Both the position numbers and the translations under genes were made by a program. Below the pieces are notes generated by a model. The model made no database searches. It was not told the DNA's origin and saw only the letters and a list, made by a program, of their open reading frames with translations. A stretch of 33,822 bases of DNA from a virus, in the IMG/VR virus record IMGVR_UViG_3300025070_000126, positions 1 through 33,822 of that record, one strand, 5' to 3'. Below are positions 10,885 to 33,449 of this stretch, one piece after another; the first letter of the stretch is position 1, and every line of letters starts with the position of its first letter.

Positions 10885-10890
10885 GATTGA

Positions 10891-10899
10891 TTCCTCCTT
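10891..10899 (-). promoter_or_regulatory. strong ribosome binding site AAGGAGGAA
   Basis: On the - strand AAGGAGGAA ends eight bases before the ATG at 10884 and overlaps the TAA stop of the preceding gene. It decides the start of the hub-like protein against the upstream ATG at 10905. Confidence 0.75.
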
Positions 10900-11413: not shown

Positions 11414-11751
11414 CAGCAGTTCCACCGTTTAAGAGAAGCCCCTTTCGGTGTTAATTTACCTTTCTTACTCGTTGCGCCTTTCATGCCACTCATACGAGCG
11501 CAGAATGATTTACGACGCTTGGCCTTCTTTGAGCCGGGCTTGAGTTTACTTGGCTTAGTTGTCACAGGGGGTTTGAGATTTGCGCCACTCTTGCGCTTGG
11601 CGGCGGCACGACCCTTAGCGTTCAGTCCACCCTTTGGACTGTGCTTGTTTGGGTTATAACCGTGAAATGGTTTACTTTTTTTCTTTGCCTTCATCAAAGC
11701 AAACGCATTTTCCATTGGTGTACAACAATTACAAAAGTCGTATTCAATCAT
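11413..11751 (-). CDS. small basic phage protein (DUF6321-like C-terminus)
   Basis: This 112-residue protein is very rich in Lys, Arg, Gly and Ser. After a cysteine cluster (C7, C9, C10) and the peptide TPMENAFALMKAKKK, the rest (about 36-112) reads KHSPKGGLNAKGRAAAKRKS, NLKPPVTTKPSKLKPGSK, KRRKSFCARMSGMKG, and ends LKRWNC. This ordered set of short motifs is one I recognise from many marine phage proteins; I believe it is the domain named DUF6321, of unknown function. Its charge suggests nucleic-acid binding or packing inside the virion. It starts in a 4-base ATGA overlap with the giant gene and ends in a one-base TGATG overlap with the next, so it is translated with them. Confidence 0.65.
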   Translation of the reverse strand: MIEYDFCNCCTPMENAFALMKAKKKSKPFHGYNPNKHSPKGGLNAKGRAAAKRKSGANLKPPVTTKPSKLKPGSKKAKRRKSFCARMSGMKGATSKKGKLTPKGASLKRWNC

Positions 11752-14700
11752 GCGCCATCACCACTGTGGTCTGTTGAGTTGTAGGAGACATCTCCTTTAT
11801 GTCCTTTTGGATGTAAGGCTTGACTGAACCGTGGTTGTACACTGTAGTCCTTACGAACAATAGTCTCATCGTTTTCTACAGATGTACGGCGGCGTGATGC
11901 ATCGGAACGGTAATGTTCTAAAGTATTCTCACTGATAATTACACGAGTAACTTCATTGTCAATTTTACTACTATCAAAGCCGCTGTCAGCCGTTCCGATG
12001 ATTTTTGGGCCTTTACTCATAGGCACAGTGTCACTTGCACTAATGTCCATGTAATACGCAGGTGTGTAAGGTGGATTAGTGTCGGGGTTGGTGGCACGAA
12101 TGTATGACCCAACTGATGCCTTACCGTTATCCACATCATACACATACAGTCCATACTTACCACCAGCAGTAGCACCGAAGTAGTTGCTACCTACTTGTGG
12201 GCTTGATGAGTGCAAGTTGAGATTAGAACGGAACATCTCAATGTGTTGCTTGTCCATCATACGCACTGGGCGCATCATGTATGTGACCTTCTTATCAGTC
12301 ACATTTGTACGCACATGTCCGTTAGTGTCTGTATGGTATGGATTGCTGGACTTCCATTGACTCGGATTACTTGAAAATCCATACTTTTCAGCGAGGTAGC
12401 CTTCTACTTGTCTTTCTTCTTCAGTAGTCATTGAGCGATTGTACTGTATTACTTCTGCAATTTTTCCATTTAAGTAAAACGACGAGGGTACATTACCAAC
12501 AATGTAGCCTCCTGTGTCTGCTTTCCAAAAAGCACTTGTCGTAGTGTAATTTCCTGCGCCTTGTAAGTTCATTTTGAGGGTAGCGGTACTTCCATTACCA
12601 TCGCCACCAGTAATAGAGGCAGTGACTAATTCGGCCTGTCCACCCACTGCGCTGTTTGTTGCTGAACTCACCGTAGCCCACCCAGTGTCAGCACCTCCCC
12701 ACCACTGCCACCTGTTGTTTGAATCCATTCGGATGTACAGATTAAATCCACTACGAGTGGCTGGACTACCTGCTCTTGACTCAATGATTCCATGAATGCC
12801 ACCATCATCGCTGTCTGCCCAAGCGACAACAAACACTGTCATTTCAGCAGTGTTTAAACGAGCGTCAAATGATGTTTCCAATTTATCATCGCCGTCACAA
12901 TCTACAACGGGCATGTTGTTTACATTGGATGATGAGGCAATATAGGATGGTTGGTTGGATGCAGTGGATTGTGTGAACTCAAAGCCATACGGCCCACTAT
13001 CTTTCCATGATGATACAGCCGCCCCATCAGCCAAATCAAGACTATCGGCTTTGAGCCATAGTACCATGCCCGATGTAGGAATACCACCCCAATCAGTATC
13101 ATCAACAGGTGAAAGGAAGTTGCGAGTTTCAGCAAGGTAAGTACCACCAAGCGGGTTGAAGTTTGATGTATGACTCATACGCACCGCACCACCTTGAGGT
13201 TGTCCTCCAAAGTCAAGTGCGGTAAGGTCGTAGTTACCTATTGTTTGAGAGCCTGTTTGCATACCACCTTGTAATACAACACGCTGTCCTACATTGCGGT
13301 CAGTGTGTAGGCTGTGCGCTTCGGTGTTGATGATGATTTGATTGGTGTCAACACCTTGTAGGTTTTCGGTGTCAAGACCGATACGAGGACTACTGCGGCT
13401 TACTGCATCCTTATGCGGTGAGTCACCGACAATGTTCTCTATACGGTCGCTTACTACTGCTTCGGGCTTGAGTAGTCCGTCTTCTGCAATCTCCAAGCGT
13501 GAACTGATACCACGAGGTACTTCTGTGTTTTGCAGTACATCGTTTCTTGCACGAATGAAGCCATCGTTGAGTATAGGCTCGGCGGTGTGATGAGAGAGAA
13601 CAAGTCCTGTTGTATGAATAGGTTCACTCAATGCGGTGAGTATATCCTCGTTGAACTGTGTTGGGTATCGAATACCCCGACCGTTACCCATGTCACCTAC
13701 ACGCTGTGCGTTTGATGGCATGAATACATCAACCAAAGTGTTTGTATCGTTATTATTAGTGTTGTTTAAACGACCACCGAATCTTGGTAGTGTTGCCGAT
13801 ACACTCAATGCTGTATCAGCCGCATTAGTAAGCCCCTTCAAATTGACAAGGTGGTTGCCGTTGTTGTGTATTCGTTGATACGGTGTGCGGTTGTTTCGCC
13901 GGTCGTATTCGTATGCGTCACCCGCATCCCATGATGGGCGAATACCAAATGAACGGACAGGGAAGCGGCGAACATCCTCACCACGAGTATTACCCCACCA
14001 ATCAACAATGTAATACTTAGCGGCATCCTCTATCGAATCTAAACCTTTACCGTTACCGTCACCCCACCAGTCACGCAGTACAGTAGCACTGTTGCGTAGG
14101 GTGCGAATAGGGCAACCGAATGGGCGGGTAAAGCGAACACCGTCACTGTATCGAACCTGCCACTCCGGTTTGTCAACACCAAGCATACCGGAGAAGTTGG
14201 TTTGGCGTTCCATAATACCAGTGTAGGTGTTCGGGAAAGTGGAGGTTGAACTACCGTCACCACCAGCGTATGTCGAAGTTTGAGTTTCTGTTTGCACTAA
14301 TGGGCCGTGAGTGTAACCTACACTGGCGTTGGTGGCGGTCACTGCTGTCTCTCGCAATGCTCGCAATCCATACATAGACCACTGCGGCTTGTTGTATGGT
14401 TGGCGTAGGCCAAAGCGATAACCGAATGGGCGTGGGCGTGTTGGGTTGCTGATGCCATCATACGATGATTTACTGATACCGCTACTTACAGCATACGAAC
14501 CATCATCATCAGCATCGGACCAAATAGGCCCATCGAAGCCGTAATCTCGTGGATAGTCCCATGTAGATGAGACATAAGCGTAACCATCGAGGCGGCTTAC
14601 CAACGGTCCACCACGGCTACCACTCGGCCAAAAGTGATTGAGCATACTCTTGGTGGCTGTATCGGTGCTGTCCGACTGTCCACCTTGCATAAGTCCTGTT

Positions 14701-17700
14701 CCGATAGTAGTATCAATTGTTTGAGCAGTTTGAGGTGTTCCATCAGCATCAGTGTATATGATAGAACCTACAGCGATTTGAGGTGGTAGTGTATCAAAGA
14801 CTACAACACTTGTACCTCCTTCTGCAACAGTACCGTTTACTTGATACATACGACCATCAACAAATATGTAAGCCTCATCTGCAATAACCTCTCCACCGTT
14901 TGTTGTGATTGTATTACCAGTGTGTGATACAACTTGACGAGTGTGTGAACCATCAGCGGCAAGGTCAGCGGTCTTGTAATAGCGCAGTGAATGATTACCA
15001 CTCGCCATAGTTGTCAATGGTGTACCCTTAACATTGACACACCCTGTTAATGTTGTACCGCCAGCACCACCACCGGTATAAGTGAATATTTCTTCCTCAC
15101 TACCACTATTGACATACACTGTGTTTGTACCACTTGTAGGCCATCCGGCCATGATAGCACCTGTAGCAGTTACAGTTGTACCACTCACACTCGCAGATGT
15201 AGCAGTGTAGTATGTTGATTGTGCTTCGGTAGGTGGCATGGCTGTTTTCATTCGCAAAGCAAACGGCCCTATACTGGCATAGTAAGTAGCGTCATGGTAA
15301 TGAACCGTTTCAAAATGTTCCGGCATACTGTTGAGTGGTTTTTGGTTGATGGCTCGGTCAGTCAGTGGGTTCAACCATGTTCGACTTGCATCACTGTAGA
15401 AAGTATGTGGGCGACCAAGGTTTGGATGCCACAGACAAAGGAAAGCATCAGCCATGTGTAGGCTGTTGGTATCACGACTACCTGCTAAAGTTTGAGATAA
15501 GGTTTGATTGATAATACTTGTTTTACTGTCACTTAAAATTGTATTCGCTGGTCGGAAATCATACGCACGAGATAAGCGTAATTTTGTTCCTACTGTTAAA
15601 TTATTTGTAAAAGTAGAGTTGGCTACTATAGTAAATTGTTTAGGCTTATTCATCAATGATGAATCATAACCACTGCGTTCAGTGTAAGTGTGTGTTCTTC
15701 GTGTACCTGTAGCATCGGTGTATTCAAGCACCATACCGTAGTAAGGTTGCTTAGGGAATCCTCGTGCATCATCTACTGTGATGATTGTAGATGCTACACT
15801 CACTACAGAACATACAGGTGTGAGACTGATATTCTCAAGTATCTCGGAATATAAGTCGGGATAGAAACTTGGGTAGCCAGCAAGCGTAATTTGAGAAGCA
15901 ATCGAGCCGCTACTTGCTCTCAAGAACTCATAGTAGTTGTCAAGACGATGCCAAGACAAATGGTTGAAGCGGTCAGCATCAGCGTTATCCGGGCCAACCT
16001 TGTGAACAATAGACCACCACGGTATGTTGGTTGTGAAACCGGGCGTAGCATCTACGAACATACTGGGGTAATACGGTAGAGAGCGACGGACAAAGGCTGG
16101 TGACTCCGTGGCTTGTACACCAAGTGGGTTGTATAACATCAACGGTGGTATATTAGTGAAATGGCTACCGTGGTCGGGGTCATGGTCTATCATCAATTCA
16201 TTGACAAATATTTCACAGCCTCTTACATCAGCCATAGTAGCATTAGCCAGTACAAGCGCATAAGCACCATACCTGCTATCGGGTTCACGAATACCTACAA
16301 CCAGTGCGACTTGTTGGCTTGTTAATTCACTTACACTACCATTAGGAACATCATTAGCAGGGCCATTTGCATGATAACCGATAAATTGCGAACTATGCAT
16401 ATTTGGTTGTATAATGATTTGATACGCACCAACCTCGGCAGGGTCGGGGAAATGTTCTTTCAGTGTGTAATTACCTGCGGCTTCAAGAACAACAGTGTGT
16501 CCACCCTTTGAGTTTGTAACACCCGCATCACCCTCGGATGCAAGAACACCGTAACCGTCGTTACGCAACTTAGTTTCAAACATCAGTGAGAATCCACCAC
16601 CGTGTATGTCACTTGGGCCGCTTGGTGTAGCGGTTAATGAACCAAAGACCAACAACGGGTCATAGGTAGGGAAACGATGAACAGAAGCACTTCCTAATGT
16701 AACTAAATCATCCATATCAAAACGCTCATCAAGAATAGTAAACTCATCCGATTGTAAAGTAGCCGCACGACAGGCTCGGTGTTTGTCGTATAATCCTTGG
16801 TAGGCAGGATGCGCCCAATGTCCGGGTAGCATAGCCATTGTTGCGTTGACAAAGTGATGACCCATACGGGGGATAGGTGCAGGTGTCAATTGCGGCTTTT
16901 TGTATATTGAATAACCAGTCATGGCTTCTTCGGCTGTTACCGAGTAATTGACATAATGAGTATGTGCCATGTCGGGGCTGTTACCGCTTACTTCGGCATG
17001 GTCCCGAATACGGCGTGAACCATAGAATCGGGTGCTACCGGCAGGAATGTAATACGAAGGAACTACTTTCAGTGTAGTAATACTACTAAGAACAAGTTTG
17101 TTGAACGCTTCATCGCCTACGCAACCTGTAAATGTAGAACCGCTGATACCAGTAAAGGATGCTACGCCACCTTCATCGGTGGTAGGGTTATACAAGCGAA
17201 GGAATCTGCGCTCTCCGACTCGCTCTTTGTTACCGAATGTAGAATCATAAACAGCGGAGTTTACACTTGTATTCACTGTTAAAGTAGTGCCACTAAAAGA
17301 CACGCCTGTAAGTTCGTGATTAACAACACCATCTGCATGAGAATAGATGACTGGATGCTTGTGAGTGTTGGTATTACCCATTTTTGTTACATGGAAAAAC
17401 AAGGTACGGTCGTGTAATTCGTATGCTGTTTCAAGGGGTGCGTTTCCAGTGGAACTTTGCCAGCCCGACATCGTGCTTTCGGGGTTATCACTGCCTTGTT
17501 TGAGGTGTTCCCAATTATGGTCGCTGTAAGTAGGGCCGAGGTTTGGACTCACCAAACTGTTATCGAACATATGTTCTACAGTGGATTTAGTCATCATACC
17601 ACCTGTACCCATTGTTTCAGTTTGATAGGCTTGGAGTCTATCAAAGCCGGAGCGAACAATCAAGTTACCCGGTATAGAATCGGGGTCGGGTAAGCGTATT

Positions 17701-20700
17701 TTCATGTTCGGTTCAACACCGCTACCGGAGATTGCAGGGGCTAATCCTTGCGCTGAACGGTTGGATAGTTGAGTAAACGCTCGTATGATTGTCCCAAACG
17801 GTGAGCCACCCTCTACTGTATGTTCTTGCCCTGTATCATCTACTACTGTAATACTTTCAAACTGAATCTCTTCATTTGGTATTTCAAGAATGTTACGCAA
17901 CAAATCGGGGTGACGAGATGCCATCTGTGGGTGTGATAATTCTTGGGCTTGGATGATAGGGAACATAGCACTGTTGGTAGATTCAAAGGTAAAGCGGTTA
18001 TTACCGTACAGTTTTTCACCAGTGGTGTAAGCGTTACCACCTGCTACACGAGTAACAAACGGTACAGCACCCAACCCTCGTGCGTTTGGTGCAGGAAGGC
18101 TAAGGTTGCCACCATCCATTCGCTTCCAAACTACATGTTCGATACTAAAGTTTTGAGCAGGTGTACGCTGTGATAACTTGTAACCGTTGGTATCACCAAG
18201 CCAGTAATCATCATTAGTGTAATCGTAATTATCAATTTCAGCATCAGTGCTTGATAACTCAAGTTCTTTTGTAATATTACGAGTCACATTGGTGACATCC
18301 TCAAGTAGCATTGTACCGGGGCTAATATCAGTGTCAAAGAATAAATCACCTGTGACAGCAAAACAAGGTTCTGCGTTGTAGAGATTTGCGTCTTGGTCGC
18401 CAGTTAATGCAGTGTGTAAAACATAGGCGGCGTTTGGTACATCAGCAGTAGGTGTTGCTGTTCCTGTAGCAATCAAGGCTTCTACATTAGGACCAGCGTT
18501 GGCGGGGGCTATGTATCGTTCAGCATTATGGAATCGTTCATCCCACCGTGTTGTACCAGCAAAAGTGATAGCAGTAGCGGCGGCTACACCGGCACGAGTT
18601 TTTGATACTACGGAAAGCCAATCACCGGTTGCTGTTATACCGTCACGGTCGGTCTTGGCTACAAGTGCCAACTCACTTTCATTACTGATAACAAGCATTG
18701 CTCGACTGAATACACCCTGTTGATGGTGGAGTTTCTTATCAAGAATATACGATGTATTGGAATCTGTTGCTTCTAATATGTGAGGTGGTTTAGCACTCAT
18801 TATGTCCTTTGTACTTTCAACATCAGTGAAATCGTAATTATCGTACCAAGTGTCACCACCGACTAAACCGATATTCCAAGTGTACGGTGTGGTAAGCGCA
18901 ACATCATATGATACATTAGATGCTTCTTGTCCGTTGACTCTTGGACTTGCTTCGGGGCTGTTATACATTGGGTACGAACTTGGTAGATGACCCAATACAC
19001 TCATACACGAGGCTGATGAGCCATACGGGGTAAAACCCATTTTAGGATGCCAAGCACCTTTTCCAGCACCATATCCTTCTGTACCTACCTTGAGGGAGTT
19101 GAGGTAAGAATAACGCTCTCCCGCCCATCCTACAGCCCCTACAGGGCGTGTACGGTCAATAGCATCTACTAAACCACCAAAGTGAACTTGAGTCATGTGG
19201 TTACGAGATGATTCATTTTCGTTGTTGAAACGGTGTACGCCCGCTTTCGACCATACATAGATATTACTTGGAGAAGGGTGAACTAAGCCACCACCGCCGG
19301 GGTCATATCCCGGTGTCGGGAAAGTCATAGTTGCACTTTGACATTTGTTATGCCAAGTGGTTATGTCTTCTAAAAGAGGTAATCCGCTTATTCTATTCGG
19401 TGCGAGGTAAAACTTGATTTTGTATGTACCGCTATCATTCCATATTTCTCGGCTGTGATAACACCCAAAAGAGGATTTTATGTATCTATCTGCTTCTGCA
19501 ACATCTGTTTCGGTATAATCTCTTCCACCTGTATCGGTTCTTATCCAACCACACGCTGGTATTTGTTCTAATTCTGCTTGCGTAGCACCTGTAATAGTTG
19601 CTACAATATGAACTTCGGAATTATCAACATCTCCGGTTGTATCATCGAATGCTTCACCACTGAATACCTTACCGAGTAAATCATCAGCGAGATTATTATA
19701 TGAAACAAAGTTGGTTTCAATCCAACCGTATCGGTCTTGACGCATTGCGTTACCCATAGACGGTAGGAATGTTCCACCCATTGCTTTAAGCGCACCTTTA
19801 CCGGGGTTTTCATTGATGGCTTGGCCGATGATAGTCGCCAGTTCCTCACCGTTTTGACATCGTGTGCCATCTACAACGATGTAATCACTGTCAAAGTTAA
19901 GTGCTGTTTCGCTGTTCGCACCTTCAAGAATAGTTTTAGCCATAACACCCGAAACACGGAATGCTGTGGCATTAACTTGATTCCATGATTCCAAAGCGTA
20001 ACGATAGTTACTGTTGGGGTTTGGTGCGTTGAAAGACATTTGATTATCAAGCCATGAACCACCCGGATGATACCCACCATCCATATGAAATGTCATGTCT
20101 GCACTCATAGCGATACCGTAGTATGCGACAGCACTATGTTTGTAAGGATGGGCTTTGTAATAATCAGCGGCGTTATCACTTGTTAATTTACCAGCGGTTG
20201 GGTTTGTAAATACTTCACCATAATGAGAACCGTGTTCCGGTCGCTGTTGTAAATAACCTACATTTGGTATTCCTTGCGGTGGCGACCAGTTTAGCGTAGT
20301 ACGCCAATGGTAACGCTGTCTTGCGGTTTGATATGTTGAATCGGGCGGGCCATACAAATTGTCACTGTTGGTAATTTCATTTGGTAAGAACTTACTATGA
20401 GGTACTTTACTCCAAGTGTTGCCAGTAGTAACAACATATCCGGGGTGTGGTTCGACAGCCGCATTTGAGTTGTCGTCTTCGGTGAATGGGAATGCTTGAC
20501 CCGGCCCATAGACAAGGTAAGTGGTTTTGTTTTCAATATAATTAAATGTTAAAGTAACCGGGTCTGTGCTTGCAGTGGCGGCGGCACTCAATACAAATGT
20601 AGTAGCGTCGGTGATGGATGCTACTGTAGCCCCATCGGGAATACCTGCACCTGTCACTGTCATACCAACAACAAGTTGGGCTGTTGAATCCATGTTGACG

Positions 20701-23700
20701 GTAGTGTTACTGTTAATGTCACAGGTAGCGTCAACGATAGGCTGACTGTCGTGATAGCGGGCGGTAGGATGAGCGAAGCGAAGCACCAACGGTACAGGCT
20801 GTTGGCGAACAATACCTGCGGCGTATCTTGCTCGTACATCACCTGCCGCCGCCGCATTCAATAAAGCGAAGTCGGCATCCAAATTGCCACCTCGTAGGTC
20901 GGGTGATAGGATGCTGTCTTTGTTCGACACTGGGCTGTTGATTGACCCTCGGTGCTGATTGAGAAGGGCTGTGCCGGGGAAGAAAGCGAGCAGTGCATTA
21001 CAATCCACCATAGCGAATGACCCGCTAATTTCATTGGCGTTTTGAATACCCGCTGTTCCTGTTGGCCCACCGGAATACGGGTGAGTGTAGAACGGCGAGT
21101 AGTCGTTCTGTGTCCCGTCGTTAATGTCGAGTGTAACACCAGTGAACCCACCACCAAAGTAAAGCGGTACACTGTGGTCTATACTGTCTCTTGCACCACG
21201 GAAGAAAATGATAGGTTCACTGTCAACGCTACCATATGAACGATAACCGCATATTGCTTCACGCTCAATTCCGGGTTGGTTTGGTTCAGCAAAGCGAGTA
21301 AGAACAAAGTCATCATTTACATCACCGTTAAACGCTGTTCGCCATAATCCATTACCGTGTCCATCGGTATATGTCAAAGAGGTGTGCGATACAGTGCTTT
21401 TAATTGATTTAACTGCACCTCTCGCTATACCATCAGCGGTAGCATATGAAAATACCAACTCTTCTCCGAATGAACCTTCTTTAGCAAGACTATCAATTGA
21501 ATCCGCTTCTTGTCCGGCTGGAATTATAGCGTGTGCTATTTTATTGGTTTTTGAAACAAACTCATTTTCTATGTTGCCGCCTGTTGAGTCATAATTATTA
21601 AACAGTAAAATCGGATTGTTTAAGCAAGGTAGAATATGGTCGCCAGTAATAGATGTGTAATTTTCACCTTTGAGATTTCTTCGCCAAGAAGTAACCGATA
21701 AAGGAGTATTAGATGAATCTACCAGTACAGGAGTGGCTGTGTTTGCATTAAACCCTCGACCCTTACTTCGTAATTGAAGTACAGTGTATGGTAAATATCC
21801 TACATCCATTCGACGGTGTGAATCAAGTTCAGCATCGCTATACGGTTTGTTAATAGGGTCAGTAGCAACAAGAGTCCAACCTACTGTTGTTTCATGTAAA
21901 GTTGTATATTCACCATATTCAAGGTGGGCGGCTTGAATACCCCAGTCTTTATGCAATGTAGCCTCAAACATTTGAGAAAGCGGTAATGTGTTTCTTGATG
22001 GAGTATGCGCTCGTATTTTGATAGCATCGGGGGCTACACCCCATTGCCCAAATGTACGCCCATCTGCGGCATACATCTCTCGGCAATCAAAGTTGAGTAA
22101 ACGGTTTGGGTCTTCATGGTTAATTGCCGCCGCAGTAACAGCCGCCATCAATTCATCAGTAACAAGCGTTGTCCAGTTAATTCGAGGTGAAAGTAATACA
22201 CGCAGTTGCACATTGTCGGTTGGATTTACTTTGGTAGTATCGTCTACTGTTCCGCTGTTTACAAAGTGAGAAGAAGTGAATGTATCTCCAACCACTCCGT
22301 AGAAAATATGTGTTCCGTTGTTATCGTTTTGTGTACGGTGTGTGTAAGAAACGGTATGCCCGACAATACCTTTTATTCCGGCATTACCATCAGCGTCAGT
22401 ATATCCTGTAGTGCCGGTAAAGGTATCATTGATTTGGAGAAGGCCGTTTGTTTTCGGGAATCCGAGATAACCGAGAACATCGGGGTGATTACCCATTACC
22501 CCGTCGCCAACTCCACCAGTATCAAACGGTGCTTGTAGTACAACTGTTAATTCTGTTCCCGACCAAGTAACACTTGCATCAATACCAACAGAAGGTGCGG
22601 GTACACCATTCCAGCGATTACCACGGTATGACGCTTCTGTAAGGTCGCCTGTTGTATCAATGCGACCAGTAACATCACCAAAACCGAGCATGTGATTACC
22701 AATGGTAAATCCTCCTTGCCCTACATCTCGGTCATCAAAATATACACATATTTCATTGTCAAGAGTAGGCGGTAATATAGTATTATCATTACTAAAATTA
22801 GTTCCCATATCTCGATAAATGTAGCGTACACCGTAATTATTACCACGGTGGTCTTCAAATTGGAATCCATATAGTTGTCCATCACCTACATTTTCAACTT
22901 GAGAATCTGTCACATGGTCCGAATAGTCTGCTATTGATGTAGGTGCTGTATTACCTGTAGAAATAGCATTAGAGTAGCGAGTATCAAAGTCTGTATTACC
23001 TCGCTCACCAAGACCCCATACACCTGCATCGGGGGCGAAACCCGGAATACCAGCGGCTACCATACCACCAAAGTTGATTCTACCTACGGCCTGTGTACCA
23101 GTTCGTAATCCTTCAACAAGGGTCTTTGACGGGCTTTGCGATTCAAAAGACTCATCATTGATTGTATTGGCATTCATTCCACTACCATTAAACGCTGAAA
23201 TACTTCTTTTTGTATTTCTTCCTTGTATGGTACTGGACAAATCATTTTGCCTTACATCAAAGTCACCATTACTTACAAAATTATCATCTGTTTCTTCTTG
23301 CGTAACATACTCTCGGAGTGTAGTAATCGGTGCAAATGGTCTGCCATGCTTGTTAATAGGCATAGGTGCAGGGTGCATATTCTCACCACTGGTTTCGTCG
23401 GGTTGACACCAAAAGTTTCGGAAACGCCCACCGTGACCGATAAGGAATTGGGGTTTGTATTGAGATTGACCCTTACTGTTGTCCAACCATGTACAGAAGT
23501 TACGACCACTTGCACCCGGTATGGTAGAATGTATAACGATAGAATGACCTGTGTTACCGTCAAGGTCTTCTACAACTCGACCCAAATGCGCTCGTAAATA
23601 ACCCATATGGCTACCACGGTCTTGAGTATCAAATGCTTCGTCAGCAAACCACCAAGGTGCAGGGTCGTGTATAGAACCAGTATCAGCGTTCATAGCACCG

Positions 23701-26700
23701 GTAGTAAGAGCGTTCTTTGCACCACCTTGATTGATTAAACGAACAATCTCTCGTGCGGCGGCTTCAATATCTGTAACACCTTCTTTGATACCTACTTCAC
23801 CAAAGTCAATAGTAAGACGACGCACGAAATCCATTTTACTCCAATGGTCGAGGTGTTGCAAACGACTTTCTTCATGGTTAGAAAGTAATAGACTTTGAGA
23901 GCGAATACCCTTTAAGCAAAGGAATGCTGAAATGGCTCGTGTGCCATCCGGTGTGTCCATCATAGTACTGGCATCACGAAGAGTAAATGTATCGGGATTG
24001 TTTGCAAGACGAGACTTTTTCAAAGCACCAGCGAGTGTTTGTGTAGCACCAAGTGATTTTCTTGATAAAGCGTGTAATCGGTCAGCCCAGTAGGGTGAGG
24101 CTACGGCTGGCTGAACACGAGGTAATGTACTGTCTGCAACAGTGAAAGAACTACTTGTTCCTTCATTCATAAAACCAGTATGAACATAATGACCGTGACC
24201 CTTACCCATAAAGTACGAATTATTTGTCGTAGTGAATGTTAATGTTTGATTTGAATTGGTTGCCGTAGTGTCCTTATCAAGATACAACAAACCTGCATTG
24301 ATATCTATTTCAATAATTTTAGAACCACTTGCTATACCCGTTCCGCTTACAGTCATACCCACTGAAAACTTACTCAATCTTATACCAATAGTACCATTCA
24401 ATCGTATAATTCTTACATTACCACCAAATACATGAGTATCAGTTCCCGTAGCGGCATGGTCGGTATCACATGCTTCGGTAAACGAGTTTCCTATTAGTGC
24501 TAATTTTGTTTTCCCTTGACCGGGTATAGCATAAGAGTCATGATTCAAGAAATTACTAATTGGGTTTTCACCACCAGCATTCGTTCCCATTACATCTTCG
24601 GATGTGTTACCTGCTATGTTATGCACATATGCACTTTCAATAAACTTTGATTGCTGTGTTCTACGCATGTATGGATTTTCACTTGGGAAACCATTTGCTA
24701 CATCTATTTGAGTAGTAAAGTAATGCGGTGCGCCACCATTCTGTTGCACCAAGTATCGGTCAATATCTACAATACCATCAGCAGTAACAATGTGCCGACC
24801 GAAACCGATGTGCGGTGTAGCGGCACTCGATTGAACCTGCATATGTAAATCATGGAAAGCAATGAACTCACGGTCGTGTGCTACATCAAACATCAAAACT
24901 CGTGCGTGGCCTTTGGTAGCGAGATAAGGGTCGAGATAAGCAACAGTCGGTGCTTGAGATGATGATAGTCCCATTGATTCGTAATTTAATTCAATGGTTT
25001 TGTTTACATGTTGAACAAAGTTGTTGGCGGTTTCAAGACATGAATCTCCAATTAAAAAGTTTTCAAGTGGTATAGAATCACGAGGTCGAGTCGCTAAAGC
25101 ACCCTTTCCGCCATTAAAACCTGTCCAAACTTGACCTTCGCTTAACACACCACGAGATTTAGCAAACAACCCTTCAACAGCATGAGGGTTATTCATTGTC
25201 ATGTTCATCCATATGGTATCACCGTTTCGTAGCCCGCCTTGAGCATAAGGGTATAACCATGTACGGTTGAGGATAGCATCGGGGTCGTTTTCAGTAACAG
25301 TTCCAAAACTTACTCGCAACGGGTCGCCGGATGCAATAGTAGTTGCATTAGTACCATCAAGTGTAATTACTGTGTTTGTAGCGTGTCCACTACCAGCATA
25401 CGGTGATTCAATAAATGCAACCTTTCCTACATATTTGATGTGATTAGCGTCACTCACATCCTCTATAAAGAGTTCATCACCCGGTCGAAGGTTGATACCT
25501 ACAGTATTGGCCTGTGGCATAAGAGTAGCAGTTGCAGGTGCTATCGAAAGAGTAGTTGCACCTACCGCACCCGCCGCTGTAAATGTCCATTGCTCACCAC
25601 CTACCGATGGTTTGAAAGTTGTCGCACTAAACTCATTGATGTAAGCATTAGCAGGGTCAGTAAGTGAATACAAAGCACGACAGGCTTTTTTCAATCGTAT
25701 TGTTTTACCTTTAAAATTAGTTGTAGAAAAACTTGAAGGTGCGGCGCAGACAAATTGATTTGCCGTTTCACTCACACTTGCAATGTTTCCGAGAAAAATC
25801 ATTTCGATAGGCGTGTCAGTGAGAACTTCGGCAACAAATATCATATCACCATTCCCGAATGTAGGATTATTGGAATCAGTCTCATAACCACCTATTTTAC
25901 TAAACGGCACTTCGGGGAATGTAGATGCATCATCAACAGTAAAATAATATAGTGACTGATTATTGTCTAAACCCGCAGATACTTTGTTTACTTCTAAAAT
26001 AGTTGATGAAGCGTTCTTTGATTGTATGCGAGGGGCGTGGGGATTGGTAAGCGGTCCTTCTTTGAACTCCACTGCGCTTACATATTGACGCAATCCGTAA
26101 TCGAGGTTGCCGCCTTGAGTTTGCATGTTGGCGGGGTCGTAATAGTAAGGTGAGCGATTTTCTAAGTCGGATGACGGTGTACTTTCATCCGATGCAATTG
26201 GAATAAGCGTTTCGTTTCGATAACCACCCGCTACATACAGTAAAGCACCTACAATAGCATCTGCGAAGAAGTCCTCCGAAAAGCCACCAGTAAAACCACC
26301 CGATACATTGGTCGGGATGCGAATATAGCCATCAGTAGCAGGGTCGTTTTGGTATATACCCCATTGGTTGTTTGACAGGAAAACACGACGATAGCGTATT
26401 ACATCCTTCATGTTTCTATGCTGATTCTCCGCTGATTCAGCACTTGGGAATAACTTTGGGTGTGAAACATATATGTCAGTGTGATTAGTACTTACTACGA
26501 TTTGAGTAATAGTGGTTGATGATACATGCTCGTTACTATTTGCGTTAAACCCGTATGCTGAATGAGCATTACGGTCGCTTACAGCGATGTCGTCTGCCCG
26601 ACGACCGACAGGAGTTGGATTCCATGAGTGTGCGGTATAGGTAGCATCAAGGTGTATTTTCATACTGTTGTCCGGTCCGGGGAAAATACCAGTAGGTGCG

Positions 26701-29700
26701 TGGTCGAAAAACTGCTTAGGGAAAAGAGGAACTTCAACCATTGCACGAGTACTGGCATATTGCGTACCCAATTGATAATCATGATTAACAGTGTCCATAC
26801 TTTGGAACATTCTATCGTTTACTGTACTACCGTCTTCGCAAAGGTTGTCATCACCAAAGTGAGGGTCGTTGAATAGTTTTACACTTATTTCATATTCATC
26901 TTCTGTGGCATTTGTAATAATACCAACACCGTTTAACCATTCATGAAATGATGTGTAGGCTGTACCGTTTGCATCTAAAAACGACCTTAGTTCTTCTATA
27001 CTTGCCCCACCGCTTGTATCAACAGTAAACACAAACCCACTACCAGTTTTTTCGCTATAGGCGGCACTTGCCCCGTCTTCAAGGTAAACACGACCTACTT
27101 TTGGAAAACAATATGTTCCCCACGATGCCATATCTGTTGACAGGTTATTGAGGGGTTGAACTGACATGTATATCCTATCGGTATCAGTATTGACACTCAC
27201 AGCCTGTACAGCGCAACTACGGCGGGTTGAGCCGGGTAATCGCATTAGCGGGCTTGGGTCATAGGTAGGTTTGGTGTTAATCGCACCCTGCCCCGGCCCG
27301 CCAAGTGTTACAGTAACTACAGGGGCGTTTGGCTCAATCTCTTTGACGATGTGTGAATCCGGTGAGCCGCTACCGGTGATGTTGACATTTTGATTAGCGA
27401 GTCCTTCTGCGATACCCGTCGCCAATACAGTGACGGTTTTTTCATTTGTACCGGGGTCTTCGTCTTCTTTTATTGAGCGAATACGAGTGCGGCTCATGAG
27501 GTACAGTAACGATGCGATACTTGGTGAGTTACCTTCTGTTTGATTTGTACGCATTTTCGATAACTGATTTGTTCGGGTTCTGTCGGATGGCTGAACAAAT
27601 ATAATACCGGAATACTCGTGTGTATTATAGACGACATTATCTATAATGTCAAACATTTCAAAGTTATTACTCGCATCAGTAGTTGAACCTTCATCGAATA
27701 CTCCTGTACCAGTATTGATTACAGCCGCCGGTTTAATAGACTGTAAACCTATTTCAGTCATATTTTTAACAGAATTATCAGCATTTGGTTCTATACATAA
27801 TTTATGATATGCTGAATCGTGTACGCCGTTATTATGTGACGCTGTAAGGTGTTGAGGTGTTGTATTACCATCTGTTGTTGCGTTACCGGGTGGCGTATAA
27901 TTGACAGGACAACGACTAAAATCTACTTCACTGTCAAGTTCATACCCTCCGGTATTATCACCGATTAACGAATGTTCTGTCTCTAAATGATGTGTAGTGG
28001 TCGTTTGACTGTTACCTGTCATAATGAGGCCACCGGGTGCAAACAATGTGGTGTCTTTTGTAGCATCGGCTAAGTCTGCCTCAATGACATCAAGCACTGT
28101 AGTAGAGCCGGTAAGAACATAATTACCACTCGGTACAGTCTTTTCTATCATCAAACAAGGTGTTGTTTTACCCATACTCGCACCAGTCAAGTCAACCGCA
28201 TTGTAGTGTATCTCAACATACGGTGCAAGGCTATGTGTGGTTTGAAGAGTAGGAACTTTGAGTAAAGCAATACGGCTCACACTTTCCGGTCGCAAATGAT
28301 ACAACCGTGTATCATCATTGATGTCACCTTCAAACTCCGGTACTGGACCTTTTAGCATAAATGGGCGGTAATCAAAGTTTGTACCACCAATAGCAATGGC
28401 TTGCTCTTTACTTTTTGCTAAACCATTTGACACTACAAAAGTTGCAGGTGTCGAATTGATAAAATTAGCCACTGTCACCTGTGTACTTTCTTCATAGAAG
28501 TCGGATAGAGCGTTCATTGCAAACAAATCAGCAATACCCTTTGTATTACTGTCATATCCCATTTCAACAACATCTGCCGTTCCACCCATGATTTGGTCTA
28601 TTGAGAGGTATGCGGGTTGAGGATAGCGGCGCATATACTCATGACCTGTGATATGAGAATATCTATGTCGCCCACTGTGTCCTACTTGATACAAAACATC
28701 CAATGTAGAAGGCCAAGAAACAGCAAACGGGTTGCTTGGTGAATTATCAGTAGTAGCCATTTGAGTAGAGTACACTAATGCGTGTTGTGAAAAGTTACTC
28801 TCGTCAATCACCATTTGACCCGTTTTATCAAATATTTGACTACCGTAGTGTGGAGGTTGATACGGCTTACCTGTTCCATTATCAATCAACAAATCAGCAT
28901 TTACAACGACAAAGTAGTTGTCAATATCAGCAGTACGGGAATGTAATAGCCCCCGCTTACCCCCACTAATGTTAAAATCAATGTGAATACTACTTACTGT
29001 GATTACCCCAGTAGAACCGTTAATTGACTCTATTCTTGCTCTTTCCGGCGGAGAAGCGTTTGGTTTTTCCGTATTCCGGTTAATAGAACCCGGATTGATG
29101 AGAATGTTGTATGGGGTATGAGGTATAGCAAGTGTCGCTTCTGTGCCGGGTGTGGTGGCAAAATCGGTAACTTTGTAGTTACCCATACTGTAAGGAGTGG
29201 CTGTGAATGTAGTTGTAGCACTGGTGCTGTCATACGGTTTACCGGTCAAGCGAGCAATGAGGGCTTGAGCGTCAGTAGCGGCTACGGTAATGGTAGTTGT
29301 CGTACCATCAGCGGCTACAGTAAAGGCGTTAAAGTCATAGGATTCTTCTACAATATCCAGTGGTTCTTCAAAGCGATACATACCTTTTGTTGTATCACTG
29401 TTGACGGGTACAGTACTTACAGCCATTTGCGAATCGAACTCACTATTAAAGTGAATAGCCTCGATAGCCCCTCTAAACTCTCCACCTTTACCGCCGATGT
29501 ACACATGTGCTGTTGAGTCTGCTATTCTACTTTCAATGTCAATTTCTTGCGTTGCTACAACATGTCCGTTGACATACAAAAAAACAGAACCCGCTGTAAC
29601 TCCTGCTACTACATGATACAATCCACGGTGTTTGAAATTGAGGTTTGTAGCATCGTTGTAAGCGGTATTGTCTTTCAAGTATCTATTGTAGGTATCATGT

Positions 29701-30095
29701 ATTCCACCTACTTCTTGCGGCGGGTAAACCACTCCATCCCATCGTGTTGATGTAGCCTTGGCTGTGCTTAAGGAAACAGGATGCATACCACTTTGTGTTT
29801 TTAATTGTACAGTAAACTTAGCAGGGCCGGGTGTATCTACTGTACCAAACTCAAGAGTAAATTGTTCATCACGGTGTGCGACTATACCACCACAGTCCGG
29901 TACTACCCACGCTTCGATAACAAAACTATCATCCATGATAGAGTTGATATGTGTAAACTCGTCACCGCCTCTACTTGTTTTCCCAAGTATATCTCGTGCT
30001 GGTCCTACGCTGGTAAAGTTACCTTGAGGGATAAGTATTGAATCAGTAACGCCATCAAAAAAGAAAGCGTTGCTTGTTCTACCTATCCCTACCAT
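11748..30095 (-). CDS. giant 6115-residue virion protein with terminal LamG-like domains
   Basis: This single uninterrupted frame of 18.3 kb encodes about 670 kDa, far beyond usual phage tail proteins of about 1000-2000 residues. Residues 1 to about 235 form a LamG/concanavalin-like domain (AFFFDGVTDSILIP, FVIEAWVVPD, YHVVAGVTAGSVFLYVNG, HVYIGGKGGEFRGAIEAIHF). Residues about 5670-5907 form a second one (GMVLWLKADSLDLADGAAVS, GKIAEVIQYNRSMTTEEERQ). Such domains bind carbohydrate. Between them is a long Asn/Thr/Gly/Asp-rich beta-like region with few cysteines, two copies of a VGMTV[ST]G[TA]GI motif and other phage-type beta segments. I see no signal peptide, membrane segment or protease motif. 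GAGGTG six bases before the ATG supports the start. Its place after the tape measure suggests a tail-tip adhesin or very long fibre; the cell surface is the likely partner. Confidence 0.85.
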   Translation of the reverse strand: MVGIGRTSNAFFFDGVTDSILIPQGNFTSVGPARDILGKTSRGGDEFTHINSIMDDSFVIEAWVVPDCGGIVAHRDEQFTLEFGTVDTPGPAKFTVQLKTQSGMHPVSLSTAKATSTRWDGVVYPPQEVGGIHDTYNRYLKDNTAYNDATNLNFKHRGLYHVVAGVTAGSVFLYVNGHVVATQEIDIESRIADSTAHVYIGGKGGEFRGAIEAIHFNSEFDSQMAVSTVPVNSDTTKGMYRFEEPLDIVEESYDFNAFTVAADGTTTTITVAATDAQALIARLTGKPYDSTSATTTFTATPYSMGNYKVTDFATTPGTEATLAIPHTPYNILINPGSINRNTEKPNASPPERARIESINGSTGVITVSSIHIDFNISGGKRGLLHSRTADIDNYFVVVNADLLIDNGTGKPYQPPHYGSQIFDKTGQMVIDESNFSQHALVYSTQMATTDNSPSNPFAVSWPSTLDVLYQVGHSGRHRYSHITGHEYMRRYPQPAYLSIDQIMGGTADVVEMGYDSNTKGIADLFAMNALSDFYEESTQVTVANFINSTPATFVVSNGLAKSKEQAIAIGGTNFDYRPFMLKGPVPEFEGDINDDTRLYHLRPESVSRIALLKVPTLQTTHSLAPYVEIHYNAVDLTGASMGKTTPCLMIEKTVPSGNYVLTGSTTVLDVIEADLADATKDTTLFAPGGLIMTGNSQTTTTHHLETEHSLIGDNTGGYELDSEVDFSRCPVNYTPPGNATTDGNTTPQHLTASHNNGVHDSAYHKLCIEPNADNSVKNMTEIGLQSIKPAAVINTGTGVFDEGSTTDASNNFEMFDIIDNVVYNTHEYSGIIFVQPSDRTRTNQLSKMRTNQTEGNSPSIASLLYLMSRTRIRSIKEDEDPGTNEKTVTVLATGIAEGLANQNVNITGSGSPDSHIVKEIEPNAPVVTVTLGGPGQGAINTKPTYDPSPLMRLPGSTRRSCAVQAVSVNTDTDRIYMSVQPLNNLSTDMASWGTYCFPKVGRVYLEDGASAAYSEKTGSGFVFTVDTSGGASIEELRSFLDANGTAYTSFHEWLNGVGIITNATEDEYEISVKLFNDPHFGDDNLCEDGSTVNDRMFQSMDTVNHDYQLGTQYASTRAMVEVPLFPKQFFDHAPTGIFPGPDNSMKIHLDATYTAHSWNPTPVGRRADDIAVSDRNAHSAYGFNANSNEHVSSTTITQIVVSTNHTDIYVSHPKLFPSAESAENQHRNMKDVIRYRRVFLSNNQWGIYQNDPATDGYIRIPTNVSGGFTGGFSEDFFADAIVGALLYVAGGYRNETLIPIASDESTPSSDLENRSPYYYDPANMQTQGGNLDYGLRQYVSAVEFKEGPLTNPHAPRIQSKNASSTILEVNKVSAGLDNNQSLYYFTVDDASTFPEVPFSKIGGYETDSNNPTFGNGDMIFVAEVLTDTPIEMIFLGNIASVSETANQFVCAAPSSFSTTNFKGKTIRLKKACRALYSLTDPANAYINEFSATTFKPSVGGEQWTFTAAGAVGATTLSIAPATATLMPQANTVGINLRPGDELFIEDVSDANHIKYVGKVAFIESPYAGSGHATNTVITLDGTNATTIASGDPLRVSFGTVTENDPDAILNRTWLYPYAQGGLRNGDTIWMNMTMNNPHAVEGLFAKSRGVLSEGQVWTGFNGGKGALATRPRDSIPLENFLIGDSCLETANNFVQHVNKTIELNYESMGLSSSQAPTVAYLDPYLATKGHARVLMFDVAHDREFIAFHDLHMQVQSSAATPHIGFGRHIVTADGIVDIDRYLVQQNGGAPHYFTTQIDVANGFPSENPYMRRTQQSKFIESAYVHNIAGNTSEDVMGTNAGGENPISNFLNHDSYAIPGQGKTKLALIGNSFTEACDTDHAATGTDTHVFGGNVRIIRLNGTIGIRLSKFSVGMTVSGTGIASGSKIIEIDINAGLLYLDKDTTATNSNQTLTFTTTNNSYFMGKGHGHYVHTGFMNEGTSSSFTVADSTLPRVQPAVASPYWADRLHALSRKSLGATQTLAGALKKSRLANNPDTFTLRDASTMMDTPDGTRAISAFLCLKGIRSQSLLLSNHEESRLQHLDHWSKMDFVRRLTIDFGEVGIKEGVTDIEAAAREIVRLINQGGAKNALTTGAMNADTGSIHDPAPWWFADEAFDTQDRGSHMGYLRAHLGRVVEDLDGNTGHSIVIHSTIPGASGRNFCTWLDNSKGQSQYKPQFLIGHGGRFRNFWCQPDETSGENMHPAPMPINKHGRPFAPITTLREYVTQEETDDNFVSNGDFDVRQNDLSSTIQGRNTKRSISAFNGSGMNANTINDESFESQSPSKTLVEGLRTGTQAVGRINFGGMVAAGIPGFAPDAGVWGLGERGNTDFDTRYSNAISTGNTAPTSIADYSDHVTDSQVENVGDGQLYGFQFEDHRGNNYGVRYIYRDMGTNFSNDNTILPPTLDNEICVYFDDRDVGQGGFTIGNHMLGFGDVTGRIDTTGDLTEASYRGNRWNGVPAPSVGIDASVTWSGTELTVVLQAPFDTGGVGDGVMGNHPDVLGYLGFPKTNGLLQINDTFTGTTGYTDADGNAGIKGIVGHTVSYTHRTQNDNNGTHIFYGVVGDTFTSSHFVNSGTVDDTTKVNPTDNVQLRVLLSPRINWTTLVTDELMAAVTAAAINHEDPNRLLNFDCREMYAADGRTFGQWGVAPDAIKIRAHTPSRNTLPLSQMFEATLHKDWGIQAAHLEYGEYTTLHETTVGWTLVATDPINKPYSDAELDSHRRMDVGYLPYTVLQLRSKGRGFNANTATPVLVDSSNTPLSVTSWRRNLKGENYTSITGDHILPCLNNPILLFNNYDSTGGNIENEFVSKTNKIAHAIIPAGQEADSIDSLAKEGSFGEELVFSYATADGIARGAVKSIKSTVSHTSLTYTDGHGNGLWRTAFNGDVNDDFVLTRFAEPNQPGIEREAICGYRSYGSVDSEPIIFFRGARDSIDHSVPLYFGGGFTGVTLDINDGTQNDYSPFYTHPYSGGPTGTAGIQNANEISGSFAMVDCNALLAFFPGTALLNQHRGSINSPVSNKDSILSPDLRGGNLDADFALLNAAAAGDVRARYAAGIVRQQPVPLVLRFAHPTARYHDSQPIVDATCDINSNTTVNMDSTAQLVVGMTVTGAGIPDGATVASITDATTFVLSAAATASTDPVTLTFNYIENKTTYLVYGPGQAFPFTEDDNSNAAVEPHPGYVVTTGNTWSKVPHSKFLPNEITNSDNLYGPPDSTYQTARQRYHWRTTLNWSPPQGIPNVGYLQQRPEHGSHYGEVFTNPTAGKLTSDNAADYYKAHPYKHSAVAYYGIAMSADMTFHMDGGYHPGGSWLDNQMSFNAPNPNSNYRYALESWNQVNATAFRVSGVMAKTILEGANSETALNFDSDYIVVDGTRCQNGEELATIIGQAINENPGKGALKAMGGTFLPSMGNAMRQDRYGWIETNFVSYNNLADDLLGKVFSGEAFDDTTGDVDNSEVHIVATITGATQAELEQIPACGWIRTDTGGRDYTETDVAEADRYIKSSFGCYHSREIWNDSGTYKIKFYLAPNRISGLPLLEDITTWHNKCQSATMTFPTPGYDPGGGGLVHPSPSNIYVWSKAGVHRFNNENESSRNHMTQVHFGGLVDAIDRTRPVGAVGWAGERYSYLNSLKVGTEGYGAGKGAWHPKMGFTPYGSSASCMSVLGHLPSSYPMYNSPEASPRVNGQEASNVSYDVALTTPYTWNIGLVGGDTWYDNYDFTDVESTKDIMSAKPPHILEATDSNTSYILDKKLHHQQGVFSRAMLVISNESELALVAKTDRDGITATGDWLSVVSKTRAGVAAATAITFAGTTRWDERFHNAERYIAPANAGPNVEALIATGTATPTADVPNAAYVLHTALTGDQDANLYNAEPCFAVTGDLFFDTDISPGTMLLEDVTNVTRNITKELELSSTDAEIDNYDYTNDDYWLGDTNGYKLSQRTPAQNFSIEHVVWKRMDGGNLSLPAPNARGLGAVPFVTRVAGGNAYTTGEKLYGNNRFTFESTNSAMFPIIQAQELSHPQMASRHPDLLRNILEIPNEEIQFESITVVDDTGQEHTVEGGSPFGTIIRAFTQLSNRSAQGLAPAISGSGVEPNMKIRLPDPDSIPGNLIVRSGFDRLQAYQTETMGTGGMMTKSTVEHMFDNSLVSPNLGPTYSDHNWEHLKQGSDNPESTMSGWQSSTGNAPLETAYELHDRTLFFHVTKMGNTNTHKHPVIYSHADGVVNHELTGVSFSGTTLTVNTSVNSAVYDSTFGNKERVGERRFLRLYNPTTDEGGVASFTGISGSTFTGCVGDEAFNKLVLSSITTLKVVPSYYIPAGSTRFYGSRRIRDHAEVSGNSPDMAHTHYVNYSVTAEEAMTGYSIYKKPQLTPAPIPRMGHHFVNATMAMLPGHWAHPAYQGLYDKHRACRAATLQSDEFTILDERFDMDDLVTLGSASVHRFPTYDPLLVFGSLTATPSGPSDIHGGGFSLMFETKLRNDGYGVLASEGDAGVTNSKGGHTVVLEAAGNYTLKEHFPDPAEVGAYQIIIQPNMHSSQFIGYHANGPANDVPNGSVSELTSQQVALVVGIREPDSRYGAYALVLANATMADVRGCEIFVNELMIDHDPDHGSHFTNIPPLMLYNPLGVQATESPAFVRRSLPYYPSMFVDATPGFTTNIPWWSIVHKVGPDNADADRFNHLSWHRLDNYYEFLRASSGSIASQITLAGYPSFYPDLYSEILENISLTPVCSVVSVASTIITVDDARGFPKQPYYGMVLEYTDATGTRRTHTYTERSGYDSSLMNKPKQFTIVANSTFTNNLTVGTKLRLSRAYDFRPANTILSDSKTSIINQTLSQTLAGSRDTNSLHMADAFLCLWHPNLGRPHTFYSDASRTWLNPLTDRAINQKPLNSMPEHFETVHYHDATYYASIGPFALRMKTAMPPTEAQSTYYTATSASVSGTTVTATGAIMAGWPTSGTNTVYVNSGSEEEIFTYTGGGAGGTTLTGCVNVKGTPLTTMASGNHSLRYYKTADLAADGSHTRQVVSHTGNTITTNGGEVIADEAYIFVDGRMYQVNGTVAEGGTSVVVFDTLPPQIAVGSIIYTDADGTPQTAQTIDTTIGTGLMQGGQSDSTDTATKSMLNHFWPSGSRGGPLVSRLDGYAYVSSTWDYPRDYGFDGPIWSDADDDGSYAVSSGISKSSYDGISNPTRPRPFGYRFGLRQPYNKPQWSMYGLRALRETAVTATNASVGYTHGPLVQTETQTSTYAGGDGSSTSTFPNTYTGIMERQTNFSGMLGVDKPEWQVRYSDGVRFTRPFGCPIRTLRNSATVLRDWWGDGNGKGLDSIEDAAKYYIVDWWGNTRGEDVRRFPVRSFGIRPSWDAGDAYEYDRRNNRTPYQRIHNNGNHLVNLKGLTNAADTALSVSATLPRFGGRLNNTNNNDTNTLVDVFMPSNAQRVGDMGNGRGIRYPTQFNEDILTALSEPIHTTGLVLSHHTAEPILNDGFIRARNDVLQNTEVPRGISSRLEIAEDGLLKPEAVVSDRIENIVGDSPHKDAVSRSSPRIGLDTENLQGVDTNQIIINTEAHSLHTDRNVGQRVVLQGGMQTGSQTIGNYDLTALDFGGQPQGGAVRMSHTSNFNPLGGTYLAETRNFLSPVDDTDWGGIPTSGMVLWLKADSLDLADGAAVSSWKDSGPYGFEFTQSTASNQPSYIASSSNVNNMPVVDCDGDDKLETSFDARLNTAEMTVFVVAWADSDDGGIHGIIESRAGSPATRSGFNLYIRMDSNNRWQWWGGADTGWATVSSATNSAVGGQAELVTASITGGDGNGSTATLKMNLQGAGNYTTTSAFWKADTGGYIVGNVPSSFYLNGKIAEVIQYNRSMTTEEERQVEGYLAEKYGFSSNPSQWKSSNPYHTDTNGHVRTNVTDKKVTYMMRPVRMMDKQHIEMFRSNLNLHSSSPQVGSNYFGATAGGKYGLYVYDVDNGKASVGSYIRATNPDTNPPYTPAYYMDISASDTVPMSKGPKIIGTADSGFDSSKIDNEVTRVIISENTLEHYRSDASRRRTSVENDETIVRKDYSVQPRFSQALHPKGHKGDVSYNSTDHSGDGA
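12375..13088 (-). other. C-terminal LamG/concanavalin-like domain of the giant protein
   Basis: This covers residues about 5670-5907. The domain opens GMVLWLKADS and includes AAVSSWKDSGPYG, MPVVDCDGDDKLET and TVFVVAWADSDDG. It closes NGKIAEVIQYNRSMTTEEER followed by VEGYLAEKYGF. This opening and closing are the standard ends of LamG_3-type lectin-like domains in marine proteins. Confidence 0.75.
20538..20733 (-). other. VGMTVTGAGI-type beta motif, copy 2, in the giant protein
   Basis: Around residues 3120-3185: VNMDSTAQLVVGMTVTGAGI followed by PDGATVASITDATTFVLSAA and a TLTF strand. This is a recurring beta unit of phage structural proteins, and copy 1 lies about 3.7 kb upstream in the gene. 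The two are diverged in sequence but keep the same order of elements. Confidence 0.6.
24220..24421 (-). other. VGMTVSGTGI-type beta motif, copy 1, in the giant protein
   Basis: Around residues 1892-1958: RLSKFSVGMTVSGTGIASGS, then KIIEIDINAGLLYLDKDTTA and QTLTFTTT. It has the same layout as the copy near residue 3150, with a G-I-[AP]-[SD]-G turn and a closing TLTF strand. Confidence 0.6.
29391..30095 (-). other. N-terminal LamG/concanavalin-like domain of the giant protein
   Basis: This covers residues 1-235. It shows the AFFFDGVTDSILIP opening, DDSFVIEAWVVPD, the LYHVVAGVTAGSVFLYVNG strand pair and GEFRGAIEAIHF, which is the usual order for a LamG sandwich. A lectin-like domain at the N-terminus of a tail protein could attach the protein to the particle or bind glycans. 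Confidence 0.6.
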
Positions 30096-32350: not shown

Positions 32351-32631
32351 TCAGTACCCTCCCAATCCAAAAACGAGTAATCCAAACTTACCATCTCCCT
32401 GTCACCTGCCTTCGCCTGTTGTTTGCTATGTTCGGTTTTCTTTTTCTCTTCTTCGGTTGCAACCATCGCCCAAACGAGTGATTGCTTGAATAACCGAGGG
32501 GGCATTGAGTAAACTTCAAGCAAGGATATTGAATAATGTTTAGCGATTGTATAGGCCCAAAGTTCTACTTGAGTTGTTAAATCACTTTCACTGTCAATTT
32601 TATCCTTACGAAGAAACTTCTCGACCCTCAC
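32347..32631 (-). CDS. tail assembly chaperone, downstream (GT-like) frame
   Basis: This is the -1 frame following the upstream chaperone gene. A GTG at 32631 would give 94 residues, but the frame is open back through the slip site at 32646-32654, so it is more likely made as the C-terminal part of a frameshifted fusion of about 218 residues. The fused reading passes GG to VYEADRVRVEKFLRKD. The protein is helical and charged (EEEKKKTEHSKQQAK) and ends YSFLDWEGTE. This pair before the tape measure matches the lambda G/GT tail chaperones, which bind the tape measure and recruit tail tube protein and are absent from the mature particle. It overlaps the tape measure start by 4 bases. Confidence 0.65.
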   Translation of the reverse strand: MRVEKFLRKDKIDSESDLTTQVELWAYTIAKHYSISLLEVYSMPPRLFKQSLVWAMVATEEEKKKTEHSKQQAKAGDREMVSLDYSFLDWEGTE

Positions 32632-33442: not shown

Positions 33443-33449
33443 TCACCTC
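33443..33449 (-). promoter_or_regulatory. ribosome binding site GAGGTGA
   Basis: GAGGTGA lies five bases upstream of the SAP-gene ATG and overlaps the stop of the tail tube-like gene. It matches the anti-SD end of 16S rRNA perfectly and fixes this start. Confidence 0.75.

Follow-up and report, generated by a model that had tools for sequence, protein, structure and literature searches.

A 6,115-residue LamG-bearing protein encoded in the tail module of a magrovirus-type archaeal virus

Results

The tail module and its giant gene

The stretch of DNA analysed here, referred to as the window, is the 33,822-nucleotide (33.8-kb) IMG/VR record IMGVR_UViG_3300025070_000126, whose near-complete relatives are about 95-115 kb in length. 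Its minus strand carries genes in the order tail tube, SAP-domain protein, two small genes, tape measure, 402-residue protein, giant protein, DUF6321 protein, 175-residue protein, 479-residue protein, 125-residue protein and tail fibre (Table 1), and its plus strand encodes a PD-(D/E)XK nuclease, an ERCC4 nuclease and a group II chaperonin. Synteny around the giant gene is fixed: it is encoded after the tape measure and the connector position and before the hub position, the roles of these neighbours being assigned from position, and its median distance to the gene for the 402-residue protein is 3 bp. Profiles of the 402-residue protein, the 479-residue protein and the tail tube retrieved no sequence match in the PDB.

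Several of the smaller genes have features of their own. The SAP-domain protein (32953-33438, minus strand; PF02037, 3e-12) is encoded between the tail tube and the tape measure, an odd spot for a DNA-binding motif. The tape measure gene contains a 57-bp tandem repeat at 32030-32152 that corresponds to a repeated 19-residue unit, and the length of the tape measure varies among relatives; an exact 20-bp tandem repeat (10898-10939) is located where the genes for the 175- and 479-residue proteins meet. The DUF6321 protein is present only in some relatives, yet keeps 83-91% identity even in cases where that of the giant falls to about 45%, a pattern that suggests either recent horizontal spread or extreme constraint.

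Table 1. Features of the window and of the giant protein encoded in it
Feature	Coordinates	Strand	Basis and remarks
Group II chaperonin (thermosome)	5733..7244	+	Cpn60_TCP1, 1e-125; PDB thermosomes closest solved structures; convergent with the tail operon
Tail fibre protein	7571..9118	-	phrog_24456, phrog_892; 371-1199 residues in relatives
479-residue conserved protein, HFTV1 baseplate hub position	9466..10905	-	Synteny; no PDB sequence match
DUF6321 protein, 112 residues, basic	11413..11751	-	PF19846; ATGA overlap with giant stop
Giant tail-module coding sequence	11748..30095	-	Open frame and codon periodicity; 6115 residues, 664 kDa
Conserved C-terminal ~208 residues of giant	11751..12374	-	Alignment, conservation profile
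C-terminal LamG insert, residues 5670-5907, insertion hot spot	12375..13088	-	phrog_10356
Predicted small beta-rich domain, residues ~4759-4859	15519..15821	-	Confident island in a low-confidence model
Predicted small beta-rich domain, residues ~4249-4347	17055..17351	-	Confident island in a low-confidence model
Plug-in module copy 2, residues 3121-3184	20544..20735	-	hmmsearch; profile match to copy 1; lacking in most relatives
Plug-in module copy 1, residues 1897-1955	24231..24407	-	hmmsearch; lacking in about half of the relatives compared
Predicted beta-rich core, residues 241-1080	26856..29375	-	Mostly well predicted; pLDDT mostly 65-95 outside 897-960
N-terminal LamG / concanavalin A-like domain, residues 1-240	29376..30095	-	Pfam Laminin_G_3; AlphaFold; Foldseek; family-conserved
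402-residue tail protein, HFTV1 baseplate-tail connector position	30105..31313	-	Synteny; gene-order analogy only
Tape measure protein, 345 residues	31313..32350	-	phrog_1535, E 1e-30, and many others
Two small overlapping genes, tail-assembly-chaperone position	32347..33002	-	Between tube and tape measure
Tail tube protein, C-terminal end	33448..33822	-	PF18906 Phage_tube_2, E 4e-9 in record L003 (633 residues there)

The giant gene starts with an ATG at 30095 and ends with a TGA at 11748-11750, and its 6115 codons specify a protein of 663,833 Da with a pI of 5.2 that is enriched in Thr, Gly, Ser and Asn. A preliminary description of this DNA had reported a single uninterrupted frame, and this is exact: there is no in-frame stop in any 500-codon block, against 13-55 in each full block of the other frames, and codon-position G+C is periodic all along the gene (about 0.52/0.46/0.34). 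The same description had noted 4-base and SD-linked junctions with the flanking genes; the giant stop indeed overlaps the start of the next gene as ATGA, and GAGGTG lies directly ahead of the giant ATG, with the upstream gene ending just before. An identical protein is encoded in three other IMG/VR records (L002, L003 and L006), which, with the low dN/dS described below, argues against any chimera or frameshift within 11748-30095. Indeed, it is exceedingly improbable that the frame is an assembly artefact, an explanation for which nothing of substance speaks beyond two records with short frames (L012 and L022). Many independent assemblies bear identical or collinear giant frames, the codon composition is periodic and dN/dS is far below 1, and assembly error was rejected on these grounds.

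LamG domains, body and plug-in modules of the giant

LamG-like domains had been proposed at residues 1-235 and about 5670-5907 of the giant. At the N-terminus, Pfam Laminin_G_3 is matched in 8 of 14 relatives (best 1e-7), the window's own sequence falling below the curated cut-off, and an AlphaFold model of residues 1-1180 (41 sequences; pLDDT 76, pTM 0.72) retrieved in Foldseek the LamG domains of PAPP-A, laminin and neurexin, together with other jelly-roll folds. Matches to the binding-domain fold of clostridial neurotoxins were set aside as reflecting only the common jelly-roll fold, with no functional meaning. Near the C-terminus the evidence comes from phrog_10356 (6e-14) and, in relatives, Laminin_G_3 (1.3e-7). 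Thus, a LamG jelly-roll is predicted at the N-terminus by both sequence and modelled fold, and at the C-terminal site by sequence.

These two domains differ in kind, one being fixed and the other optional, as revealed by the occupancy of an insertion hot spot after residue ~5665: among 106 distinct relatives, 77 have no insert there, 19 have a LamG domain, 8 have a module of ~80 residues and 2 have other inserts. The proposal of lectin-like domains at both ends is therefore true of the window sequence, but the C-terminal one is an insert that most relatives lack. Nor does this domain form the terminus of the chain, since ~208 conserved residues follow it.

Between the two LamG domains, the body of the protein has few recognisable features. 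No relative of the core at residues 241-1080 was found in the PDB or BFVD besides its own homologue, and the top Foldseek matches were of low coverage and LamG size; as the listed matches are only LamG-sized, this region may hold an unrecognised fold. A model of residues 3800-4960 had a pLDDT of 38, with two small beta-rich domains as confident islands, and this poor prediction could reflect chains that intertwine, an alignment of insufficient depth or genuine flexibility. Profile self-comparison of the giant detected no internal repeats beyond two plug-in modules, and a repeat-built fibre seems unlikely on this basis. No enzymatic domain was found in the body in a Pfam analysis of 14 relatives, and weak matches to Hint, GCH_III and Gp18 were judged to be due to chance.

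The plug-in module comprises ~60-80 residues, is also what fills the hot spot in the 8 relatives with an ~80-residue insert, and occurs in up to eight copies per giant in relatives. Its flanks in relatives map to one point of the window protein (for example 3675/3671, 5215/5215 and 4388/4390), and because they do so at many sites the module appears to have been cleanly inserted. It matched no Pfam family and was not found in isolated phages. The same module is present in some tail tubes (700-732 residues, against 617-656 typically) and in some homologues of the 402-residue protein (450-558 residues). The occurrence of a common module in giant and tail tube suggests that the giant is exposed on the tail surface. 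It would also be in keeping with a different arrangement, in which the giant forms a sheath-like or skirt-like coat around the tail tube or connector rather than a tip fibre, as would its great size and its lack of fibre-like repeats. Its gene, however, lies beyond the tape measure and connector genes, in a place typical of tip and fibre genes, and no sheath homology was seen apart from a Pfam match (0.029) of a single relative to Gp18 domain I; we regard a coat as decidedly unlikely.

Conservation and selection

More than 300 relatives of the giant are present in IMG/VR. Single scans with different parts of the protein yielded 57 stretches (48 loci), 321, 218 and 354 relatives, the four sets overlapping in part. 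Where intact, these relatives span about 5,200-6,800 residues, and the core is collinear across the family at 45-60% identity. Besides the identical copies, about 20 distinct complete frames of 5227-6779 residues can be aligned from end to end, well above the 4000 residues for which a homologue search had been recommended.

Two further look-ups, anchored on the tail tube and on family B DNA polymerase (PolB), were chosen so as not to select on the giant itself; the two queries derived from giant-bearing lineages, the best 80 matches to each were used, and the resulting counts cover these lineages. The giant is next in place in 50 of 50 tail-tube-anchored contigs that extend more than 6 kb downstream, at identities down to 35%, and is found in 22 of 23 PolB-anchored records of at least 74 kb, with intact frames of 5484-6148 residues. 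The one record that lacks it (G033), linear and 77 kb long, may be incomplete.

Comparison of the giant with four relatives gave dN/dS values of 0.11-0.20 overall and of at most 0.31 in any 500-codon block, and purifying selection is strong in every such block. Together with the conserved synteny, this selection backs two expectations voiced at the outset, that the giant is expressed (co-transcribed) with the tail genes and that its role is costly and important.

The giant core is 60% identical where the tail tube is 60% and the 479-residue protein 59% identical; the giant evolves at the pace of these two proteins, whereas the tape measure, the 402-residue protein and the tail fibre evolve faster. 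These rates bear on the possibility that the giant is the main receptor-binding adhesin determining host range. Its LamG domains, the tail-fibre position of its gene, domain swapping at the C-terminal site and a C-terminal LamG block that has the highest dN/dS (0.22-0.31) in 4 of 4 comparisons would all suit an adhesin, but the core is conserved and collinear throughout the family, and the downstream fibre (7571-9118), with its threefold spread in length among relatives, is a more typical variable, host-range candidate. With a core conserved to the same degree as the tube and hub-position protein, and with a variable fibre encoded separately, the giant is not necessarily what chiefly sets host range, and we consider that role unlikely. 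The initial idea of a tail-tip fibre agrees with the gene order, and the surface coat proposed alongside it is conceivable, but the core evolves as structural proteins do and not as a receptor-binding tip.

A protein with many different domains, no repeats and a size very large for one folded chain could also be a polyprotein from which several virion proteins are released, for example through a virus-encoded prohead protease, an enzyme that magroviruses do encode (PMC10160649). Among intact contigs, however, no split version of the gene turned up, and an apparent natural split of the gene in one relative (L380) proved to be a run of N, that is, a scaffold gap. We rate cleavage of this kind as very unlikely.

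Two records have unusual giant frames. In IMGVR_UViG_3300004457_000028 (G007; 103,294 bases), a 3548-residue frame exits one contig end and a 2176-residue frame re-enters at the other, as if a circularly permuted genome had been opened inside the giant gene. In one record of the contig IMGVR_UViG_3300000101_000071 (L022/L124), the frame ends at 3740 residues, through either a sequencing error or a true truncation.

Virus identity and host

Magroviruses are among the most abundant viruses of the ocean, and to our knowledge none is in culture. The window represents part of an archaeal tailed virus of the magrovirus type. A chaperonin-family gene is present in 21 of 21 giant-bearing records tested, and PolB in 17 of 19, including one nearly identical to the window (G001, the same as L003), the window fragment itself ending short of PolB. 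Genes of the window run in opposite directions. An archaeal-type group II chaperonin is encoded in all 18 genomes of magrovirus clade 1 (PMC5332604), and the replication and morphogenesis modules of Apasviridae are transcribed in opposite directions (PMC12999244). PolB, the group II chaperonin and the opposed gene directions thus lead us to an assignment of the magrovirus clade A / Apasviridae type. On the basis of published assignments (PMC5332604, PMC12999244), the host is probably a Marine Group II (Poseidoniales) archaeon. The giant accounts for about a sixth of the genome in these viruses.

A link to the host was also sought through cellular genomes, and no relative of the giant was found among GTDB genome contigs, as expected of a lytic virus. 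A chaperonin query of GTDB, made with exact peptide patterns from one virus-specific sequence and for that reason uninformative, retrieved nothing. Among isolated-phage records, the match was to the C-terminal LamG region only, in cyanophage KBS-S-2A.

Discussion

With moderate confidence, we propose that the giant is an obligatory structural protein of a non-contractile tail of the magrovirus clade A type, serving as an external tip fibre or scaffold with glycan-binding-type domains. Its gene would occupy the tail-fibre slot between those of the connector-position (30105-31313) and hub-position (9466-10905) proteins, and a few copies, perhaps trimers, would be attached at the distal tail. The mostly non-repetitive, beta-rich body would form a large external fibre or skirt, with the LamG domain and plug-in modules on its surface engaging glycans of the host surface weakly and multivalently. 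Finer host specificity would then be provided by the variable fibre (7571-9118), and the hub would trigger DNA ejection. Gripping of host glycans or S-layer sugars, which was suggested for the protein from the beginning, is something we infer from gene position and the LamG fold.

A broader proposal is that the giant founds a new class of virion proteins, namely megadalton-scale, largely non-repetitive tail scaffolds of new fold with interchangeable glycan-binding domains, whose folding depends on the adjacent virus thermosome. We advance this tentatively, and doubt that it will hold in full.

As a near-universal tail protein that takes up about a sixth of the genome, the giant is a strong candidate for host attachment. 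Its conserved N-terminus and swappable modules are concrete pieces to express and test, and the protein bears on the question of why magroviruses carry a chaperonin. Laminin_G_3 has been listed as an auxiliary metabolic gene in four magrovirus groups (PMC10160649). The domain described here belongs to the same Pfam family and at least one copy of it resides in a tail-module protein, which suggests that at least one such 'auxiliary metabolic gene' in magroviruses actually encodes a virion part. No earlier description of a giant magrovirus tail protein was found in a partial coverage of the literature, and a prior description is possible.

The giant can be described as an extremely large fibre or tip protein of the tail whose surface modules are interchangeable, and a long homologue of it is already deposited. 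This is the unnamed viral protein A0A1B1IU10 (UniProt; split in BFVD into four or more pieces of ~1,380 residues), to which no function is attached. It matches the N-terminal slice of the giant at 45% identity (TM 0.74) and the slice 3800-4960 at 48-50%, and these matches to both slices indicate that the deposited homologue is ~5,500 residues or more in length. A0A6J5T0D4, from an uncultured marine member of the Caudovirales (at least 3 BFVD pieces), is likewise a large viral protein of LamG / concanavalin A-like type, but proteins of this kind reach TM-scores of 0.13 or below against the giant, consistent with a LamG domain only, and no common core was seen. The plug-in module recalls the Ig-like domains on the tail tubes of phages (lambda gpV, T5 pb6), which are reported to be dispensable and for which carbohydrate binding has been proposed (PMC5717097). 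Both are small and plugged into several structural proteins, here the giant, the tail tube and the 402-residue protein; no Ig-like Pfam family was matched in the giant or its relatives.

The closest parallel in overall arrangement is HFTV1, a haloarchaeal siphovirus solved from head to tail, in which the genes are ordered tape measure (gp40), connector (gp41), trimeric fibre (gp42) and hub (gp44) (PMC12494034). Neighbouring genes of the giant gave no sequence match to HFTV1 tail parts, and for the 402-residue protein the analogy is one of gene order only. Furthermore, no similarity to gp42 was detected among PDB sequences for residues 1-1250 and 5001-6115 or for the profile of residues 1-1180, and gp42 was not among the best 50 Foldseek matches to residues 1-1180. 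In HFTV1, a 341-residue tape measure goes with a 56-nm tail, and the hub has a predicted carbohydrate-binding domain (PMC12494034). By comparison, the 345-residue tape measure of the window would predict a tail of about 56 nm. The two viruses therefore resemble each other in their order of tape measure, connector, fibre and hub, in the length of the tape measure (341 and 345 residues), and in a carbohydrate-binding-type domain at the tail tip, the tip placement in the magrovirus being predicted from gene order. In contrast to gp42, the protein in the fibre slot of the magrovirus is of extreme size and is equipped with LamG and plug-in modules.
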